NCBI GenBank assembly: GCA_033584155.1
Contig: CP138355.1
Location: forward strand, 1,054,001 to 1,118,000
From: Candidatus Electrothrix scaldis
GTDB taxonomy: Bacteria; Desulfobacterota; Desulfobulbia; Desulfobulbales; Desulfobulbaceae
Length of the DNA stretch: 64,000 nt
Direction of reading: 5' to 3'
The notes under the pieces are model-generated. The model did no database searches. It worked only from the letters and a program-made list of their open reading frames with translations, and was not told where the DNA came from. Positions 3,956-52,352 of this stretch are shown here, one piece after another. How positions within the stretch are numbered: position 1 is the first letter of the stretch; each line of letters begins with the position of its first letter. The translations under genes and the position numbers were made by a program.

Positions 3956-6673
3956 ATGGAAAGCGAACGAATGTATTCCCGGCAGATTGCCTTAACCGCT
4001 GTCATGCTGCTGGCCCTGCTGCCGTTAAGTGCAGTAGCGGCAGAACCGTATCTGGTCAAGAATATCAGCAATCTGTCTACACAAGGCTCCGATCCGTCTC
4101 AAGGAGTTGCTCTGGGCAGTATCTACTATTTCACCACCTTTGACGGACCCAACGGCAGAGAGCTGTGGAAGAGCGACGGTACCGAGGCGGGAACCGTTAT
4201 GGTCAAAGACATTTACGCAGGTGCAGGCAGCTCGGACCCGGATAATCTGACGGCAGTTGACGGTCTGCTTTATTTCAGTGCCTTTGACGGACCCAACGGC
4301 AGAGAGCTGTGGAAGAGCGACGGTACCGAGGCGGGAACCGTCATGGTCAAAGACATTTACGCAGGTGCAGGCAGCTCGGACCCGGATAATCTGACGGCAG
4401 TTGACGGTCTGCTTTATTTCAGTGCCTTTGACGGACCCAACGGCAGAGAGCTGTGGAAGAGCGACGGTACCGAGGCGGGAACCGTTATGGTCAAAGACAT
4501 TTACGCAGGTGCAGGCAGCTCGGACCCGGATAATCTGACGGCAGTTGACGGTCTGCTTTATTTCAGTGCCTTTGACGGACCCAACGGCAGAGAGCTGTGG
4601 AAGAGCGACGGTACCGAGGCGGGAACCGTTATGGTCAAAGACATTTATGCGGGCGCAAACAGCTCGTCCCCCTACTCTCTGACCGCTATGAACGGCCTGC
4701 TCTGGTTCAGGGCATCTGGCGGAATTCACGGCAATGAGCTGTGGAAGAGCGACGGTACCGAGGCGGGAACCGTTATGGTCAAAGACATTTACGCAGGTGC
4801 AGGCAGCTCGGACCCGGATAATCTGACGGCAGTTGACGGTCTGCTTTATTTCAGTGCCTTTGACGGACCCAACGGCAGAGAGCTGTGGAAGAGCGACGGT
4901 ACCGAGGCGGGAACCGTTATGGTCAAAGACATTTATGCGGGCGCAAACAGCTCGTCCCCCTACTCTCTGACCGCTATGAACGGCCTGCTCTGGTTCAGGG
5001 CATCTGGCGGAATTCACGGCAATGAGCTGTGGAAGAGCGACGGCACAGAGGCGGGAACAGTCATGGTCAAAGATATTTATGCGGGATCAGGCGGCTCGTA
5101 CCCGGATAATTTGACGGCAGTGGACGGTCTGCTCTATTTCAAGGCCTATGTCGGATTCAACGACTATGAGCTGTGGAAGAGCGACGGTACCGAGGTGGGA
5201 ACAGTCATGGTTAAAGATATTTACGTAGGTTCAGATAGCTCGAACCCTTCCGCTCTAACCGCAGTGGACGGACTACTTTATTTCAGTGCCGATGATGGAA
5301 AAAACGGTAGAGAGCTGTGGAAGAGTGACGGTACCGAGGCGGGAACCGTCATACTTGGGGATATCAATACATGGGCAAGCAGCTCGTACCCGGAGAATCT
5401 GATCGCAGTGGACGGTCTGCTTTATTTCAGTGCCGATGACGGAACCAACGGCAGAGAACTGTGGAAGAGCGACGGTACCGAGGCGGGAACCGTCATGCTC
5501 AAAGACATTTACGCGGCAGGCAACTCAACCCCGTCCTACCTGACCGCTATGGACGGGCTACTCTATTTCGCTGCAGAGGACGAGACCAGCGGCAATGAGC
5601 TATGGAAGAGCGACGGTACAGAGGCGGGAACCGTCATGGTCAAAGACATTATCGCGGGCCCAAGCAGATCACAACCGTTCTATTTGACTGCTGTGGACGG
5701 GTTGCTCTATTTCAGTGCCAATGACGGACCCAACGGCAGAGAGCTGTGGAAGAGTGACGGTACAGAGGAGGGAACCGTCATGGTCAAAGACATTCGTGCG
5801 GGCTCAGGCAGCTCGTCTCCAGATAATTTGACCGCAGTGGACGGTCTGCTTTATTTCAGAGTCTACGACGGATCCAACGGCTATGAGCTGTGGAAGAGCG
5901 ACGGCACAGAGGCGGGAACCGTTATGCTTGGGGATATCAATAAATGGGCAAGCAGCTCGTATCCCCGCTATCTGACCGCAGTGGACGGGTTGCTCTATTT
6001 CGCTGCAGAGGACGAGACCAACGGCACTGAGCTATGGAAGAGCGACGGTACAGAGGGGGGAACTGTCATGGTCAAAGACATTCGTGCGGGCTCAAGCAGC
6101 TCGAATCTGGATTATTTTACCGCTATGGACGATCTGCTCTATTTCAATGCCTCTGACGGAATCAATGGCTATGAGCTGTGGAAGAGCGACGGCACAGAGG
6201 CGGGAACCGTCATGGTCAAAGACATTGACTTGGACTCAAGTAGCTCGTACCCCCGCTCTCTAACCGCTATGGACGGTCTGCTCTATTTCAATGCCTCTGA
6301 CGGAACCAACGGCAATGAGCTATGGAAGAGCGACGGTACAGAGGCGGGAACCATTATGATCAAAGATATTAACGTGGGCGCAGACGACTCGTCCCCGGAT
6401 AATCTGACCGCAGTGGACGGTCTGCTCTATTTCAGTGCTGACGATGGACCCAATGGCTATGAGTTGTGGAAGAGCGACGGCACAGAGGCGGGAACCGTCA
6501 TGGTCAAAGACATTTACGCGGCAGGTAGCTCGTCTCCCTATAATATGACCGTTGTGGATGGGGTGCTCTATTTCAGTGTCTATGACGGACCTCACGGCGA
6601 AGAGCTGTGGGCGTATGCACTAAAAAAAACGATGGGATGGCTGCCCGCCGTCTATTTGTTACTGATGCAGTAA
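3956..6673 (+). CDS. Secreted ELWxxDGT-repeat beta-propeller-like protein
   Basis: 905 residues from the ATG at 3956, chosen because GGAGGGG precedes it and a signal peptide follows directly (hydrophobic core ALTAVMLLALLPLSAVAA). An upstream in-frame TTG (3899) lacks these. The mature protein is a chain of ~48-residue units with the core ELWKSDGTEAGT followed by VMVKDI and LTAVDGLLYF. I count 17 ELWKSDGTE cores plus a final degenerate ELWAYALKK. This is the ELWxxDGT repeat known from secreted or surface proteins of environmental bacteria and predicted to fold as beta-propeller blades. The first seven units are almost identical in DNA as well as protein, showing recent internal expansion. The C-terminus (LPAVYLLLMQ) is hydrophobic. 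Function unknown; extracellular binding or structural role is inferred. Confidence 0.85.
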   Translation: MESERMYSRQIALTAVMLLALLPLSAVAAEPYLVKNISNLSTQGSDPSQGVALGSIYYFTTFDGPNGRELWKSDGTEAGTVMVKDIYAGAGSSDPDNLTAVDGLLYFSAFDGPNGRELWKSDGTEAGTVMVKDIYAGAGSSDPDNLTAVDGLLYFSAFDGPNGRELWKSDGTEAGTVMVKDIYAGAGSSDPDNLTAVDGLLYFSAFDGPNGRELWKSDGTEAGTVMVKDIYAGANSSSPYSLTAMNGLLWFRASGGIHGNELWKSDGTEAGTVMVKDIYAGAGSSDPDNLTAVDGLLYFSAFDGPNGRELWKSDGTEAGTVMVKDIYAGANSSSPYSLTAMNGLLWFRASGGIHGNELWKSDGTEAGTVMVKDIYAGSGGSYPDNLTAVDGLLYFKAYVGFNDYELWKSDGTEVGTVMVKDIYVGSDSSNPSALTAVDGLLYFSADDGKNGRELWKSDGTEAGTVILGDINTWASSSYPENLIAVDGLLYFSADDGTNGRELWKSDGTEAGTVMLKDIYAAGNSTPSYLTAMDGLLYFAAEDETSGNELWKSDGTEAGTVMVKDIIAGPSRSQPFYLTAVDGLLYFSANDGPNGRELWKSDGTEEGTVMVKDIRAGSGSSSPDNLTAVDGLLYFRVYDGSNGYELWKSDGTEAGTVMLGDINKWASSSYPRYLTAVDGLLYFAAEDETNGTELWKSDGTEGGTVMVKDIRAGSSSSNLDYFTAMDDLLYFNASDGINGYELWKSDGTEAGTVMVKDIDLDSSSSYPRSLTAMDGLLYFNASDGTNGNELWKSDGTEAGTIMIKDINVGADDSSPDNLTAVDGLLYFSADDGPNGYELWKSDGTEAGTVMVKDIYAAGSSSPYNMTVVDGVLYFSVYDGPHGEELWAYALKKTMGWLPAVYLLLMQ
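4140..5040. repeat. Near-identical 144-bp intragenic tandem repeats
   Basis: Units encoding the 48-residue ELWxxDGT blade are almost identical at DNA level from about 4140 to 5040. Units 1-4 differ at only one or two third-codon positions (for example gttatg/gtcatg). A two-unit block containing the variant YAGANSSSPY and RASGGIHGNE blade appears twice in a row, indicating a higher-order 288-bp duplication. Later units diverge progressively. This is a likely site of copy-number variation and assembly error. Confidence 0.9.
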
Positions 6674-15410: not shown

Positions 15411-15508
15411 TGGCGGAAGTGCATGGGAATCGAACCCACCTGCCGAGCTATTCACCCGGCACACCGGATTTGAAGTCCGGGAGGGCCACCAGTGCCCTTT
15501 CCACTTCC
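15411..15508 (-). tRNA. selC: tRNA-Sec (anticodon UCA), CCA encoded
   Basis: Read on the minus strand: acceptor arm GGAAGTG pairing with CACTTCC at the 3' end, discriminator G and an encoded CCA (15411-15413). The anticodon loop CTTCAAA carries UCA between the arms CCGGA and TCCGG. A long variable arm (GTGCCGGG ... CTCGGCA) follows, and the T-loop GTTCGATTC is canonical. The extended acceptor and large variable arm are diagnostic of selenocysteine tRNA. It implies SelA, SelB and SelD plus selenoproteins elsewhere in the genome; none is apparent here. Confidence 0.95.
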
Positions 15509-15708: not shown

Positions 15709-16125
15709 ATGCAATGTAAGCAATTAATTCGTCTTTCTAAGGACTGGTATACACATGTCAAGCAGGAGACTATGGCTCCGGCCCGTATGATGCAATTTGT
15801 TGATCAGCATATTAAAGACTGCGCAATATGTCAGTTTGACCCCGACCTGCCGCAAGAGGTCGAGAAAATCAGAGAGCACGTTCTGCCCGAGTCCAAACTC
15901 CCCAGAGCCTTTCGTGCGCCTAATAAGTCCCTTACCCCGGAAATTTCTCCTTCTTTGGATGATGAGAATGATTTGGATTCCGAAGACGAAGATTTGGACT
16001 CTGATGATGATCTCGATTCCGATGATTCGGATGATTCGGATGATTCGGATGATTCGGATGATTCGGATGATTCGGATGATTCCGATAACGAAGAGGATAT
16101 AGATGATGAAGACGATTTTCTTTGA
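15709..16125 (+). CDS. Small protein with Cys-containing N-terminus and Asp/Ser-repeat tail
   Basis: 138 residues in two parts. Residues 1-70 are an ordered-looking domain with Cys3, and Cys38 and Cys41 in DCAIC (MQCKQLIRLSKDWYTHVKQE, FVDQHIKDCAICQFDPDLP), possibly a metal site. Residues 84-138 are almost purely acidic: DLDSEDEDLDSDDDLDS, then seven DDS units, ending EEDIDDEDDFL. The acidic part is encoded by a 9-bp DNA repeat and can vary in length. I do not recognise the family. The gene is alone, between the tRNA-Sec promoter region and the helicase gene. The acidic tail could bind cations or basic proteins, but that is speculation. Confidence 0.65.
   Translation: MQCKQLIRLSKDWYTHVKQETMAPARMMQFVDQHIKDCAICQFDPDLPQEVEKIREHVLPESKLPRAFRAPNKSLTPEISPSLDDENDLDSEDEDLDSDDDLDSDDSDDSDDSDDSDDSDDSDDSDNEEDIDDEDDFL
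16021..16083. repeat. 9-bp tandem repeat GATGATTCG, 7 copies
   Basis: Seven consecutive 9-base units (the last with TCC), identical apart from the final base, lie in frame inside the acidic-protein gene and encode Asp-Asp-Ser. Because units are multiples of three, slippage would change length without frameshift. Confidence 0.9.
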
Positions 16126-48286: not shown

Positions 48287-48519
48287 GGGGATACTCCTTG
48301 CCGTCTCATGGTAAGGGATTGATTGTCAAATCATATAAGTATTGACCGCGCTCCGCTCTTGTGTTTAATTTTGCTTTCGCGTTCCTATCCAGTTGTATAC
48401 GCACTATTGTACCCGGAAATGCACCTGCTGTGGAGGGGGAATGATGGCCCGCCCTTGTGCAGGTTTATGGACATATACGGCGGGTGCCTGCTCTTATACC
48501 CGAAACTCACGATGGTAAG

Positions 48520-49506
48520 ATGATATATAACAAACGCAATGCCCTTGTTCTTCTTGTTTCTCTCCTCCTCTCGGCCTGCTCTGTCTTACCGCCGGTGCAG
48601 CCTCCGAAGACGAAGCTCGTCCTCTATACCCTTCAGGATGAAGAAACCCTCCTCAGCCGCTATGCTCCTGTGTTCGCCATTGAGGATGCCCAGGAGAGCT
48701 ATAACCGGATCGGCACGCCCAGCGCCAAGCTTGGGCCGGGGAAAGAGGAGATCATTTATGTGGATCCAAAGACTCCTACGGTCTATGCCAGGGAGGATCA
48801 GTTCGTGACCAGGAAAGGGCATTACACCAACCTGATCTACCGCATCCATTTTGAGGAGGTGCCAGGTGGTTTCGCTCCCTACTACCTGGGCGCGGGCAAG
48901 AACGTGGGGCTGCTCTTCATCATCACCCTGAATAACGAGAACGAGCCGGTGCTCTACACCTCGGTCCATACCTGCGGCTGTTATCTGGCCTTTGTCCCGA
49001 CCTCGTACACACCGGCGGATGTCCTGCCCAAGGGCTGGAAGAAAGAACGGCAGGATGTCTATTCCGAAAGCCTGCCTGGCCTGCTTGATCACCGAAGTGA
49101 CGCCCCTGAGCAGGACAAGGTGGTGTTCGTCATTCGGGGCGGTAACCATCGGGTCAAGGATATCTGGCTGGCAGATGGTGGCTTCCTGCCTGACTACAAG
49201 AAGGTGACAGCAGATCTCCAGCCCTTTGGTGCCCTGGAGATGCTCCCGTTGGGGGACCTCTGGGCGACCTCCTTCTACGAGACCACCGGACCCAGGAAGG
49301 GCTATGTGAAGGGGAGTTATAAGTCGCGGGAGCGGCTGTACATGAGCTGGTGGGCCTTTGATTGGCAGATAGGGGAGGACAAGAAGCTGGGCAGGAATAC
49401 GTTTGATGGGGTGACCTTCTACACCAGCCTGAAGCCCTGGGCCAGGGAGGCCTCGGACATGCGGGACTTCGTGACCTTTGCGGAGTATTGGGGGTGGGAG
49501 TTCTGA
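48520..49506 (+). CDS. Hypothetical lipoprotein
   Basis: 328 residues from ATG 48520, selected because it places a lipoprotein signal (NALVLLVSLLLSAC, lipobox LLSAC) at the N-terminus; the frame extends upstream to 48457 without support. The mature protein is beta-rich: DQFVTRKGHYTNLIYRIHFE, LLFIITLNNENEPVLYTSVH, TCGCYLAFVPTSY and VVFVIRGGNHRVKDIWLADG, ending in RDFVTFAEYWGWEF. Not recognised. Anchored to the outer or inner membrane by its acylated Cys. The 48287-48519 gap upstream holds no other visible feature. Confidence 0.7.
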   Translation: MIYNKRNALVLLVSLLLSACSVLPPVQPPKTKLVLYTLQDEETLLSRYAPVFAIEDAQESYNRIGTPSAKLGPGKEEIIYVDPKTPTVYAREDQFVTRKGHYTNLIYRIHFEEVPGGFAPYYLGAGKNVGLLFIITLNNENEPVLYTSVHTCGCYLAFVPTSYTPADVLPKGWKKERQDVYSESLPGLLDHRSDAPEQDKVVFVIRGGNHRVKDIWLADGGFLPDYKKVTADLQPFGALEMLPLGDLWATSFYETTGPRKGYVKGSYKSRERLYMSWWAFDWQIGEDKKLGRNTFDGVTFYTSLKPWAREASDMRDFVTFAEYWGWEF

Positions 49507-49523
49507 ACAGGCTGCTACGATAG

Positions 49524-49638
49524 GAGTCAGCATGCTGGTACCTGGGGAGTCAGCATGCTGGTACCCGGCGAGTCAGCATGCTGGTACCTGGCGAGTCAGC
49601 ATGCTGGTACCTGGCGAGTCACCATGCTGGTACCGGGA
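49524..49638. repeat. 23-bp tandem repeat, 5 copies, palindromic core
   Basis: Five direct units of exactly 23 bases start at 49524, 49547, 49570, 49593 and 49616 with the consensus GAGTCAGCATGCTGGTACCT plus GGC. Units 2-4 differ by one or two bases; unit 5 has CACC for CAGC. Each unit contains a perfect 10-bp palindrome CAGCATGCTG and a GGTACC palindrome. There is no spacer between units, so it is not a CRISPR array. It lies between the lipoprotein gene and the 3' end of the STAND gene. Confidence 0.92.
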
Positions 49639-49669
49639 AATGGAGGGACACCACCCGGCGCGTTCCAGA

Positions 49670-49694
49670 GGGGCGACCGGCCAATCGCCCCTAC
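49670..49694. repeat. GTAGGGGC-type palindromic element, copy 5 (variant)
   Basis: GGGGCGACCGGCCAATCGCC followed by CCTAC; inverted arms GGGGCGA/TCGCCCC with a different centre from the other copies. On the minus strand the TAG of its GTAGGGGC end is the stop codon of the STAND gene (49691-49693). Confidence 0.8.
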
Positions 49695-51643
49695 ATTTGC
49701 TGCTTGGCCCGCAGCCGCTTCAGTCCATCGCGCCATCCATCTAATTCAGGATGCCCGATCTGCTCTGCAAGCTCTACGGCCAGGGCAATGTATTCCTCGG
49801 CCTGGGCAAGGTCGCCCATATCTTCAGAGGTGCGGCCGATGTTCCAGCAGGACACGGCTTCTCCGGCCCGGTCGCCCTGCTCGCGTCGGATCGCCAGGGC
49901 TTGTTGATGATACTCCATTGCCTTGTCCGGCTTACCCTGGGTATAATAGATCATGGCGATGTTGTTCAGGGTGGCGCCTTCCCCGATTGTATTCCCGACC
50001 TCCTGCCGGATAGGCAGGCACTGCTCATAATGCCATAAAGCTTCATCGTACTTTTTCTGTCCCCAATAAAGGGTGCCGATATTATTCAGAGTCGCGCCTT
50101 CCCCCTCCCGGTCGCCGACCTCCTGCCGGATGCTCAGGCTCTGCTGATAGGTCTCCAGGGCCTGCTCATACCTGCCCTGTTGCTGGTAGATGTTCGCCAT
50201 GTTCGTCAAGGTCACGCCTTCGTCCTTGCGCTCACCCAGCTCGCGCCAGATGGGCAGGCTTTCCTCAAACCAGGCAAGGGCCTGATCCTTGTCCCCGAGG
50301 TTATCGCAGGTGTAGCCAAGGCTGTTCAGGCACCACGCCTCACCTCGGCGATCTTCAGCCTGTCGGGCCGCAGTCAGGCACATCTCTACAGCAGTCAGCT
50401 TCTCTGTCCACCAGCCCTGCCGATCAAGGTAGATGTACGTTGCCCAGACCAACCCTTTCACCTCCTGCCACAGCTCCCCATCCAAACAAGCCTTTATGAG
50501 CCGCAGGCAATGCGCCCGTTCATCATCCAGCCGGGCATACCCCGCTACACCGGCAGCACTCTGTTCCTCGCACCAGGCAATATAATAGGCAGCCAGCCGC
50601 TCCAGGGCCGCTTTGCTCAGGGCCAGGTGCTTGCGAGCGTAGGTATGGACCAGGGCGTGGCTTATCTTCCAACGTTTGCCCTGCCTTTCCAGGAGGCCGA
50701 AATTAACCAGCAGCCCAAGGGCCTTGCCTGCCCGGCGTTTATTGCCGTCAAGGAGCGCAGCCATTGGCTCACGGGCCAGCGAGTGAAAGGCCAGGCAGCC
50801 TCCAGCACCCAATACAAGCCGAGCATCGTCGCTCATCCTGGTCATGCTGCGCTCCAGGAGCAAGGCTGCGTTCTCGTTCTGATGCTTGCCGCTGCCCAGC
50901 TCCTCAAATGGCGCCTCCTCCAGCCATTCCAGATATTCTGCCGCATCTCCGACTGTACTGTGCAGATACTGCCCGGCAATGCGCAGGGCCAGGGGCCAGC
51001 CGTCCAGCAGCTTGCAGATGCCCTGCACGGTCGTGGCATCCGCGTCCGTGTTGCTGTGCAGCCGGAAGACCTGCTCTGCGGGTTGCTCCTTCAGCGGACT
51101 GACCGGCACCAGCGTGCCACGCGCATCCAGCCGATCCCTGGTGGTGATCAGCACCCCGCAACCACCGCAGGAGCGGAACACGGCAGTCAGGTCATCGGCC
51201 TCCTCGGCCCCGTCCAGGATGATCAGCGCGCGCTTGTTGCTCAGCAGGCGGAAAGCCGCTGCCGGGCCGGTCTCCGGGGGATCATCCGTATAGCTGTAGA
51301 CCAGGTGATCAAAGGCCGGGTCAACAGCCGCTTGACCATAGAAGGAGTAGAAGATAATGCCGTCCGGAAAGGAGGCAGGGGGCTTGTCCTCAGGGGCCAG
51401 CTTCCAGGCGGCCTCAACAGCCAGGGCCGTCTTACCCATGCCGCCGGGACCGCACAGGGTGACGGCCTTACCCGGCTGGAGCATGGGCAGCAGATCCTCA
51501 AGCATGTCATCCCGGCCTTTAAAGTGCTCGGCCCGTGGCGGCCGCTGGAGCGGGATGCCCTGGGCAGTGCGGGCGTAGTTATGGAAATGGATACCACCCT
51601 CTACATGGGCATGGTTACCATCTATGCCGGTTTGTTGGTTCAT
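49691..51643 (-). CDS. STAND NTPase: short N-terminal motif, NB-ARC, TPR repeats (NLR-like)
   Basis: 650 residues. Residues 1-22 are a short Gly/Asn/His-rich segment whose core GNHAHVEGGIHFHN (9-22) is shared with the C-terminus of the upstream gene product. The NB-ARC ATPase follows: Walker A GPGGMGKTA at 65-73, Walker B ALIILDGAEEADD near 138-150, VLITTRDRLDARG as sensor 1 and DGWPLALRIAG as the GxP motif. A winged-helix region (LLVNFGLLERQGKRWKISHA) follows. Residues about 430-635 hold at least five TPRs with EGATLNNIG signatures. This is the NLR architecture: C-terminal repeats sense, NB-ARC oligomerises, the N-terminus signals. GAGGGAAGG precedes the ATG. The stop codon comes from a palindromic element. 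The effector gene lies 53 bases upstream. Confidence 0.9.
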   Translation of the reverse strand: MNQQTGIDGNHAHVEGGIHFHNYARTAQGIPLQRPPRAEHFKGRDDMLEDLLPMLQPGKAVTLCGPGGMGKTALAVEAAWKLAPEDKPPASFPDGIIFYSFYGQAAVDPAFDHLVYSYTDDPPETGPAAAFRLLSNKRALIILDGAEEADDLTAVFRSCGGCGVLITTRDRLDARGTLVPVSPLKEQPAEQVFRLHSNTDADATTVQGICKLLDGWPLALRIAGQYLHSTVGDAAEYLEWLEEAPFEELGSGKHQNENAALLLERSMTRMSDDARLVLGAGGCLAFHSLAREPMAALLDGNKRRAGKALGLLVNFGLLERQGKRWKISHALVHTYARKHLALSKAALERLAAYYIAWCEEQSAAGVAGYARLDDERAHCLRLIKACLDGELWQEVKGLVWATYIYLDRQGWWTEKLTAVEMCLTAARQAEDRRGEAWCLNSLGYTCDNLGDKDQALAWFEESLPIWRELGERKDEGVTLTNMANIYQQQGRYEQALETYQQSLSIRQEVGDREGEGATLNNIGTLYWGQKKYDEALWHYEQCLPIRQEVGNTIGEGATLNNIAMIYYTQGKPDKAMEYHQQALAIRREQGDRAGEAVSCWNIGRTSEDMGDLAQAEEYIALAVELAEQIGHPELDGWRDGLKRLRAKQQM

Positions 51644-51696: not shown

Positions 51697-52026
51697 TTAT
51701 TTGTTGTTGAAATGAATGCCGCCCTTTACCTTGGCATTGTCACCCTGCACACCGATCTGCGCATCACGCACGTTCTCCTGCTTAGCAATAGCCCCGTCGC
51801 CCTGGGCTATATTCTGGTCACCAGTCCCGCTGTGCGTAAAGGTATTACTGACCGGTGGAGCAGAATCTTTACCAAACAGCGGGGCAAACAGCTTGGTGAT
51901 GAGAAAGTACAGGGCCGCAAGCCCGGTCAGTCCGGCACCGCTCCAGGTCACCTCGGGGTGATCCCACAACCATTGCCCTGTGTCCGCAATCCATTGCCCA
52001 ATCTGCCCAAGTAGTTCCAGTTTCAT
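51697..52026 (-). CDS. Small membrane protein with C-terminal motif shared with the STAND NTPase
   Basis: 109 residues from ATG 52026, where AAGGGGGG provides a ribosome binding site; the frame extends to 52149 without support. Residues 1-28 are amphipathic (LELLGQIGQWIADTGQWLW). Residues about 29-48 form a membrane helix (WSGAGLTGLAALYFLITKLF). Residues 60-108 are a Gly/Asn/Gln-rich beta-type tail, SGTGDQNIAQGDGAIAKQ then IGVQGDNAKVKGGIHFNN, with loose internal repeats like a beta-solenoid. The last 14 residues (95-108) match residues 9-22 of the downstream STAND protein at 9 of 14 positions. This suggests an effector that inserts into the membrane when its tail is templated by the STAND oligomer. 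Family not recognised; function inferred. Confidence 0.7.
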   Translation of the reverse strand: MKLELLGQIGQWIADTGQWLWDHPEVTWSGAGLTGLAALYFLITKLFAPLFGKDSAPPVSNTFTHSGTGDQNIAQGDGAIAKQENVRDAQIGVQGDNAKVKGGIHFNNK

Positions 52027-52352
52027 CAATCCCCCCTTGCGTTGTTCCGGTCGCCGTCCTTGCTCTTGAATCGGTTGTTCATAGTATCCCCTATGTGTAC
52101 GGGCACGGTGCAGCTGCCCCTCCGCAGAATGATTCATCATTATCCCCATGAGATACCCTATTGCGCCGGAAAGGGCAAGGAGGAAGCAGGCGGCTCAGGT
52201 GCTGCAACCGGCCTGTTATGGGTTGCGGCAAGTGCTTGTTGACAGAACGAATTCATTCCTGTTACTAATAGCTGTGAAGCTCTTACTCCCTGAACCCTGT
52301 CTGCTGAGAGGGCAAGCCATCCTGCTTATCCTCACAGTACTACGGTGACGCA
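52027..52352. other. Divergent control region with putative promoter for the USP-permease pair
   Basis: 326 bases between the minus-strand STAND pair and the plus-strand USP gene. TTGACA at 52239-52244 and TACTAA at 52263-52268 (18 bases apart) form a plausible plus-strand sigma70 promoter. I see no gene here; the minus-strand frame to 52149 is an upstream extension without start support. Confidence 0.45.

Follow-up and report, generated by a model that had tools for sequence, protein, structure and literature searches.

Tandem 23-bp dyad arrays linked to HU-like genes in cable bacteria, and a probable remote copy beside a STAND gene of Candidatus Electrothrix scaldis

The window analysed in this study is a stretch of 64,000 nucleotides of the Candidatus Electrothrix scaldis genome (contig CP138355.1, positions 1,054,001 to 1,118,000). 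In this window, a tandem array is located between two convergent genes, a 349-aa gene and a STAND gene, and the locus is composed of the following features.

48457 to 49506, + strand: gene of 349 aa, convergent with the STAND gene; it stops 17 bp ahead of the array.
49523 to 49637, + strand: array of five head-to-tail 23-bp units (unit starts 49523, 49546, 49569, 49592 and 49615), each a 20-bp imperfect dyad of GGAGTCAGCATGCTGGTACC type plus 3 bp; found by repeat scan and covariance-model match, with six units at the ortholog in the sister species.
49638 to 49700, no strand: flank from the array to the stop of the STAND gene; a near-identical copy lies at the paralogous 2.186-Mb locus.
49691 to 51643, - strand: STAND gene of 650 aa with NB-ARC/NACHT and TPR repeats; the 3' end is on the array side, about 55 bp off, with the stop at 49691.
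51697 to 52149, - strand: small gene of 150 aa directly upstream of the STAND gene on the same strand, an operon partner by position only.

The 349-aa product gave no Pfam match at E ≤ 0.01, and its N-terminus is lipoprotein-like. Since the gene end, the flank and the array are all common to the window and the 2.186-Mb locus, the three probably moved as one. A motif resembling G(E/D)QNxxQGxxxIGKQ stands at the N-terminus of the product of the small gene at 51697-52149 and recurs at the STAND N-termini in L142, L195 and L200, so that it is carried by some STAND proteins or by the partner. Elsewhere in the window there are a tandem repeat of 144 bp at 4126-6610 (17.3 copies, 79% matches), which may be coding because 144 is a multiple of three, a run of eight GATTCGGAT copies at 16015-16086 (96% matches), and a selenocysteine tRNA on the - strand at 15415-15508 (Rfam RF01852, 75 bits).

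The first-pass annotation had described an array of spacer-free units at 49524-49638. The tandem 23-bp array is confirmed at this place (TRF: 49524-49634, period 23, 4.8 copies, 95% matches, score 201), and its unit is better described as the 20-bp imperfect dyad followed by a 3-bp spacer. Every unit had also been said to carry GGTACC and the self-complementary CAGCATGCTG. GGTACC is found in all five units, whereas the inner decamer CAGCATGCTG is exact in four (0.12 expected; none of 100 shuffles reached four) and is replaced in the fifth by CACCATGCTG. A profile scan added a very degenerate sixth unit at 49500-49519, which overlaps the end of the neighbouring gene. The + strand is free of stops across the array, hence the spurious ORFs that cross it; a reading of the 23-bp array as a coding repeat was set aside. 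RNA folding of the array was slightly better than that of shuffles (z of -1.8 and -2.2; 6 of 200 shuffles folded as well on each strand). In the five sources searched, no match at the Rfam gathering score was found at the arrays. The window array is real, and it is neither a product of chance nor an ordinary repeat.

The first-pass annotation had proposed that the unit be searched for elsewhere in the genome and its copy number compared among relatives. The unit turned out not to be single, since 18 sites within two mismatches of its 19-mer occur at six loci of the window genome (G000, one contig of 5,089,909 bases), nor is the copy number invariant, as the five units in the window correspond to six in the sister species G005. 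Eight arrays were found in G000, namely the six loci with the window type and two, 584k and 4964k, that were added by the covariance model R2. The exact unit is also present in the relative G034, and the exact 19-mer was found in at least one stretch of the genome_contigs collection and in none of the viral contigs. Two covariance models had been built, R1 from 37 two-unit windows and R2 from 36 three-unit windows. At E ≤ 0.01, R2 matched 12 of the 257 genomes of the order. Ten of these are among the 13 genomes of the genera g1 (8 genomes) and g10 (5 genomes), which we infer to be the two genera of cable bacteria, with best E values of 1e-5 to 1e-15; the other two, among the remaining 244 genomes, were weak (E 0.004-0.007). 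No R2 array match was obtained in the cable bacteria G004, G006 and G007. In the published description of the closed 5.09-Mbp genome of Ca. Electrothrix scaldis, repeats longer than 250 bp are counted (PMC10926707), and the 23-bp arrays would escape that count.

Fixed-motif scans overlooked diverged arrays. A strand-symmetric unit profile did better: applied to 65 sequences (815,672 bases), most of them chosen for already containing model matches, it gave 70 chains against none in Markov shuffles of the same sequences, and these merged into 65 arrays. It was followed by a chain search free of any fixed sequence and by a lag test. Among 60 arrays for which both neighbours are known, 41 are flanked by genes on the same strand, 13 by a convergent pair and 6 by a divergent pair. 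The unit sequence varies between arrays and the arms compensate for each other: in the wider set A2, covariation was 0.321 against 0.164 in shuffles (0 of 500) and fell to 0.07-0.10 when the structure was slid. A structure across the spacer also covaried (0.272 against 0.161), at a lower level than that within the unit. In the narrower set A1 (37 two-unit windows, mostly from G000 and G005) covariation was no better than in shuffles. At L138:6415-6529, an array with a different palindrome and a period of mostly 24 bp comes after a 23-bp array.

Short intergenic palindromes that are clustered and occur in many copies recall REP/BIME-like mobile elements spread by a RAYT (Y1) transposase, and a Y1_Tnp match was indeed found in 12 of the 13 cable-bacteria genomes. 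The numbers per genome disagree, however. G007 has 15 Y1 matches and no R2 match, G100 (69% complete) has no Y1 match and 19 R2 matches, and G016 and G034 have one weak Y1 match each yet 47 and 41 R2 matches. The constant GTAG/CGTC tag, as defined in PMC3733652, is absent by eye from the listed units; in addition, the unit sequence is gene-specific and the units keep a head-to-tail 23-bp register. An origin of the arrays as REP/BIME-like elements is scarcely credible.

Seven arrays precede genes whose product, some 360 aa long, matches HU-DNA_bdg and DUF4469; the distance from these upstream arrays to the homology start is about 100-130 bp. The profile of this HU-like family matched 12 of the 257 genomes of the order, all of them in g1 or g10, and in a sample of 395 genomes of the phylum the single match was G000 itself. 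With one member as query, phage and plasmid records gave no HU-like match at E ≤ 1e-5. First-look candidate counts of 23-46 HU-like genes per array-bearing genome were replaced by a scored search, in which the matches, fragments included, numbered 21 in G000, 25 in G005, 7 in G004 and 2 in G007, with one weak match in G006; those covering at least about 290 model positions numbered 14 in G000 and 10 in G005. The HU-poor genomes G007 and G006 are also without an R2 array match, and in G004, which has none either, one HU-like gene has an array of another type. Pfam families matched among 55 members at E ≤ 1e-3 were HU-DNA_bdg (PF14848) in 34, DUF4469 (PF14734) in 27, HU-HIG (PF18291) in 4 and Bac_DNA_binding in 1, and HU_rel matched 9 of the 55 at E ≤ 0.01. 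The two members with displayed Pfam scores had 20.7 and 27.1 bits, under the curated cut-off of 30. The best solved structure for the family was PDB 4fmr (E = 4.6e-5), and chains named HU or DNA-binding protein appeared only at E of 0.13-0.42; a seven-row profile searched against PDB retrieved no HU structure. A single-sequence AlphaFold model had a pLDDT of 32.

Split or partial HU-like genes are found at 951600-952663 and 3920301-3920602 of G000:C1 and at 1288554-1290892, 1799176-1799595, 1981873-1982734 and 4776373-4776983 of G005:C1. Several of them keep the upstream array. So many split or partial copies suggest fast turnover of the HU-like genes.

Most of the HU-like genes tested are associated with an array. 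The chain search relied on dyad symmetry, spacing of 22-24 bp and likeness of adjacent units. It was applied to the 55 of 56 HU-like genes with enough upstream sequence (mainly the best-scoring ones, with at most eight scored per genome), and an upstream array that outscored 99% of 550 Markov shuffles was found in 50 of them, or in 43 of 48 when the seven genes behind the search profile were left out. The five genes for which no upstream array was found are those in L154, L210 and L247, together with a single gene in L273 and another in L294. The distance from the end of the last unit to the homology start was 98-135 bp in 40 of the 50 array-bearing genes. Among 20 further genes, pseudogenes and fragments of G000 and G005, 19 were above the same chain-score cut. 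A test blind to dyads compared self-matches at lags 15-40. Lag 23 came out strongest for 45 of the 52 upstream regions, and lag 24 for two; in the controls, lag 23 came out strongest for none of the 51 downstream regions and, in two sets of 55 gene stretches, for 0 and 3.

These arrays, which we call home arrays, are private to their genes. A fixed unit profile, once retrained, detected arrays upstream of only 5 out of 42 HU-like genes. The units are quite different from gene to gene and nevertheless retain the dyad: when every register was left free, in real and shuffled units alike, 30 of the 49 arrays had a majority 23-mer with at least 7 of the 10 pairs, compared with 7.5% of column shuffles, and the mean was 6.69 pairs against 5.30 in shuffles. 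An earlier count (Watson-Crick fraction 0.48-0.77 at pairs 2-9 against 0.26-0.38 in shuffles) was inflated because the register had been picked by dyad score, and the free-register excess is smaller.

The home arrays are also in phase with a promoter. A sigma-70-like promoter with at least 10 of 12 bases was found in the last 130 bp before 28 of 54 HU-like genes, against 1.3% of shuffles. A score of at least 9 was obtained in 49 of the 50 array-bearing genes. In 47 of the 52 regions that reached this score, the -10 box ended 56-68 bp ahead of the homology start. From the last unit to the start of the -35 box the distance is mostly 15-17 bp, or that distance plus 23 or 46 bp. Its phase after the last unit was 14-17 (mod 23) in 39 of 49 (R = 0.77, 0 of 20000 uniform draws), and in 21 of 27 after thinning to one gene per 70%-identity cluster (R = 0.71, 0 of 20000). 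Among 55 arrays without an HU-like gene, a set divided by hand from those with one, a score of at least 9 was found in 12 (4.5 expected) and of at least 10 in 6 (0.4 expected, 0.7%). Beside the window array no promoter was found, the best candidate having 7 of 12 bases. A fixed place and register relative to a promoter, as in an operator array, is therefore a property of the home arrays and not of the window array.

The same register bears on the reading of the arrays as transcribed tandem RNA hairpins that stabilise or end mRNAs. Compensating changes in the arms and the slightly better folding of the window array would agree with hairpins. However, the home arrays precede the -35 box, so that transcription from the promoter found would leave them out, most arrays lie between genes on the same strand, and the covariation of set A1 did not exceed that of shuffles. 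We regard a role as RNA hairpins as very unlikely.

Unit and N-terminal domain of the HU-like protein diverge together. Among 50 genes, identity over residues 1-115 correlated with unit similarity (r = 0.54, 0 of 2000 permutations), also in pairs less than 65% identical (r = 0.39, 0 of 2000). For residues beyond 130, r was 0.28 over all pairs (0 of 2000) and -0.006 in distant pairs (1074 of 2000). When stretches were slid along the protein (61 genes, distant pairs), r lay between 0.22 and 0.33 as far as residue 130 and between -0.03 and 0.10 further on, with a weak leftover signal at residues 181-250 (3-7 of 300 permutations). The peak was at residues 31-70, not next to the array. This step fits recognition of the array by the N-terminal domain. 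A step would likewise arise if array and N-terminal domain were exchanged as a single module, and such shuffling could mimic co-divergence because the two adjoin in the DNA.

It is probable, on comparison of these genes and their upstream regions, that the arrays are recognition-site arrays of paralogous HU-like proteins. An array of mostly 4-7 dyads would be placed just upstream of the sigma-70-like promoter of an HU-like gene, with the -35 box in fixed register, and the N-terminal HU-like domain would read the private sequence of its own array, resulting in autoregulation. Arrays of some types are also found far from such genes, in intergenic positions that often adjoin STAND-TPR, TIR, Abi_alpha, Roco and restriction genes, and the window array would be such a remote copy. 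Units would be gained, lost and exchanged between arrays through ordinary repeat recombination. The arrays, their confinement in this order to cable bacteria, the link with HU-like genes, the promoter phase and the co-divergence with the N-terminal domain are observations; binding, autoregulation and any effect on the STAND gene are what we infer. Comparison gives good support to the view that the unit arose as a site recognised by HU-like proteins, and an effect on the STAND gene would be hypothetical. The suggestion of the first-pass annotation that such arrays can be protein-binding sites is borne out to this extent by the promoter-phased private arrays that co-diverge with the HU-like N-terminal domain; the window array itself has neither a promoter nor an HU-like gene adjoining it.

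The likely source of the window type is the 2.708-Mb array. Likeness to this array was 0.95 for the window array and 0.90-0.95 for the window, 463k, 475k, 1422k(a) and 2186k arrays, whereas likeness to the 15 remaining home arrays detected in G000 was at most 0.59 for the window array and at most 0.60 for the five arrays of its type. The 4964k array has no clear home array (0.73 and 0.70). The 2.708-Mb array is followed by an HU-like remnant with about the first 16 and the last 37 residues in different frames, and a similar remnant is present in G005; in G034 and G101, a full-length HU-like homologue follows a related array. Neither an HU-like gene nor a remnant was detected within 2.5 kb of the window array. 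The window array thus seems to be a remote copy of a type whose protein has apparently been lost from the home locus by internal deletion, and a related paralogue may still bind it. Placed between two convergent genes and with no promoter beside it, it would be either a distal binding site for such a paralogue or a relic. Its present function may be nil, as no promoter adjoins it, no HU-like gene or remnant is within 2.5 kb, and the 2.708-Mb gene is broken.

Genes of immune type are frequent beside the arrays. Among 105 immediate neighbours (at most 400 bp from an array), TPR_12 was matched in 17, NB-ARC in 10 and TIR_2 in 5, with orthologs counted more than once. Among 105 second or third neighbours (a sample of 203), TPR_12 was matched in 2, and NB-ARC and TIR_2 were absent among the 25 families listed, of which the lowest count was 2. 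PADLOC matches occurred in both sets. Further neighbours include Abi_alpha, LRR-Roc-COR and MmeI-type restriction genes, and housekeeping genes of gatB-like and carA/carB-like sequence. Beside the gatB-like gene (L187, L191, L199 and L217), the place next to an array is taken in some cases by a TIR-beta-helix gene and in others by an Abi_alpha gene; the two kinds have a short C-terminal tail in common (...RRGNKE in L191, L199 and L217) and are otherwise unrelated.

Between G000 and G005, unit numbers at orthologous arrays are 5 and 6 at the window, 5 and 6 at 463k, 4 and 7 at 2708k (plus one more degenerate unit in each), and 3 and 2 units of the window type at 2186k. Such variation between sister species, together with the near-identity of units inside an array, would be expected of neutral minisatellites that arise by slippage at random places. 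Linkage to HU-like genes, promoter phase and a dyad retained across differing units argue against this origin, which is unlikely for the arrays as a whole; the present state of the window copy may be that of a neutral minisatellite.

Recombination at the arrays has left traces. Synteny between 2186k of G000 and 3078k of G005 (97.9%) breaks off within unit 2 of the array, and beyond the break a STAND gene is found in G000 and another unit type with an ankyrin-rich gene in G005. Compared with its G005 ortholog, the STAND gene of the window is 94% identical over the first 100 bp from the array, 68-88% per 100 bp up to about 1 kb, and 93-100% thereafter. The 68-88% stretch includes patches matching the 2186k paralogue, so that the array-side part of about 1 kb is a mosaic; the TPR repeats of the gene alone could be the cause of this, without the array. 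At 1422k of G000, an LRR-Roc-COR gene and an array are both missing from the syntenic site of G005, and related LRR genes with an adjoining array occur in two g10 genomes, G026 and G034. The 1422k array combines two unit types. In the array at L062:6169-6372 the types combined are CAGCATGCTG and CACTATAGTG, and each resembles a different HU-gene array of the same genome. In the stretches compared, no alignment was obtained for the 475k array at its site in G005, nor for the 584k and 4412k arrays at their ortholog sites.

These observations, with the alternation of TIR and Abi_alpha genes described above, would suit arrays that are recombination junctions, crossover sites at which whole genes (STAND, LRR, TIR) are swapped. 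On the other hand, DNA homology on both flanks was found in 18 array pairs between different genomes, in some of them partial (many other pairs had homology on one side, largely through STAND paralogy). Repeats recombine in any case, and junctions would leave the HU-gene linkage, the promoter phase and the co-divergence with the N-terminal domain unexplained. We consider this a possible but doubtful account of the arrays. Turnover by recombination has single-case support, and the first-pass idea of a recombination hotspot that turns over the neighbouring immune-type gene gains something from the 2.186-Mb breakpoint and the STAND mosaic; one breakpoint does not make a hotspot, and the TPR repeats offer another source of the mosaic.

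Returning to recognition by HU-like proteins, a bolder form of this explanation may be imagined, in which a dozen or more paralogues per genome constitute an HU-based address system, each reading a barcode-like array of phased dyads. Stray arrays by STAND, TIR, Abi_alpha and restriction genes would then let immune genes be silenced, switched or exchanged as groups, and the window array would mark the STAND gene in this manner. We present this as speculation and think it rather improbable. If a lineage-restricted HU-like family does stand behind private, promoter-phased 23-bp dyad arrays, many natural protein-DNA pairs would be available that show how the HU fold reads sequence. Through the stray arrays by immune-type genes of a multicellular bacterium, a connection of chromatin-like proteins with defence genes becomes open to test; PMC7159879 notes that STAND NTPases are common in multicellular bacteria. 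In the portions of the open-access literature covered, and among the matches listed, there was no description of such pairs of HU-like protein and array, no mention of DUF4469, and none joining cable bacteria with HU family DNA-binding. That most of the tested HU-like genes are preceded by an array of their own suggests that cable bacteria possess an undescribed set of protein-and-site pairs.

Several known systems resemble the arrays in part. CRISPR arrays are likewise direct repeats that are partly palindromic, but the spacers here are of 3 bp instead of unique spacers of at least 20 bases, and there is no variable spacer sequence. REP/BIME elements share imperfect short palindromes that are clustered and intergenic, whereas the present arrays have no constant tag, do not track Y1 numbers and are phased to promoters. 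Autoregulators with tandem operators or iterons have direct repeats by the promoter of their own gene, and the home arrays similarly place direct repeats of a dyad next to the promoter of the adjoining gene; they differ in that a whole family of paralogues is involved, with diverging arrays of mostly 4-7 dyads at 23 bp and with stray arrays beside unrelated genes. Textbooks treat the proteins of the HU family as non-specific nucleoid proteins, and IHF demonstrates that the HU fold can be sequence-specific. Binding of DNA by HU without sequence specificity is also stated in PMC5683647. Matches to the HU-DNA_bdg, DUF4469 and HU-HIG profiles suggest that the putative partner protein of the arrays is related to this superfamily, from which it would differ in that G000 has a dozen or so near-full-length paralogues, most of them with a private tandem array.
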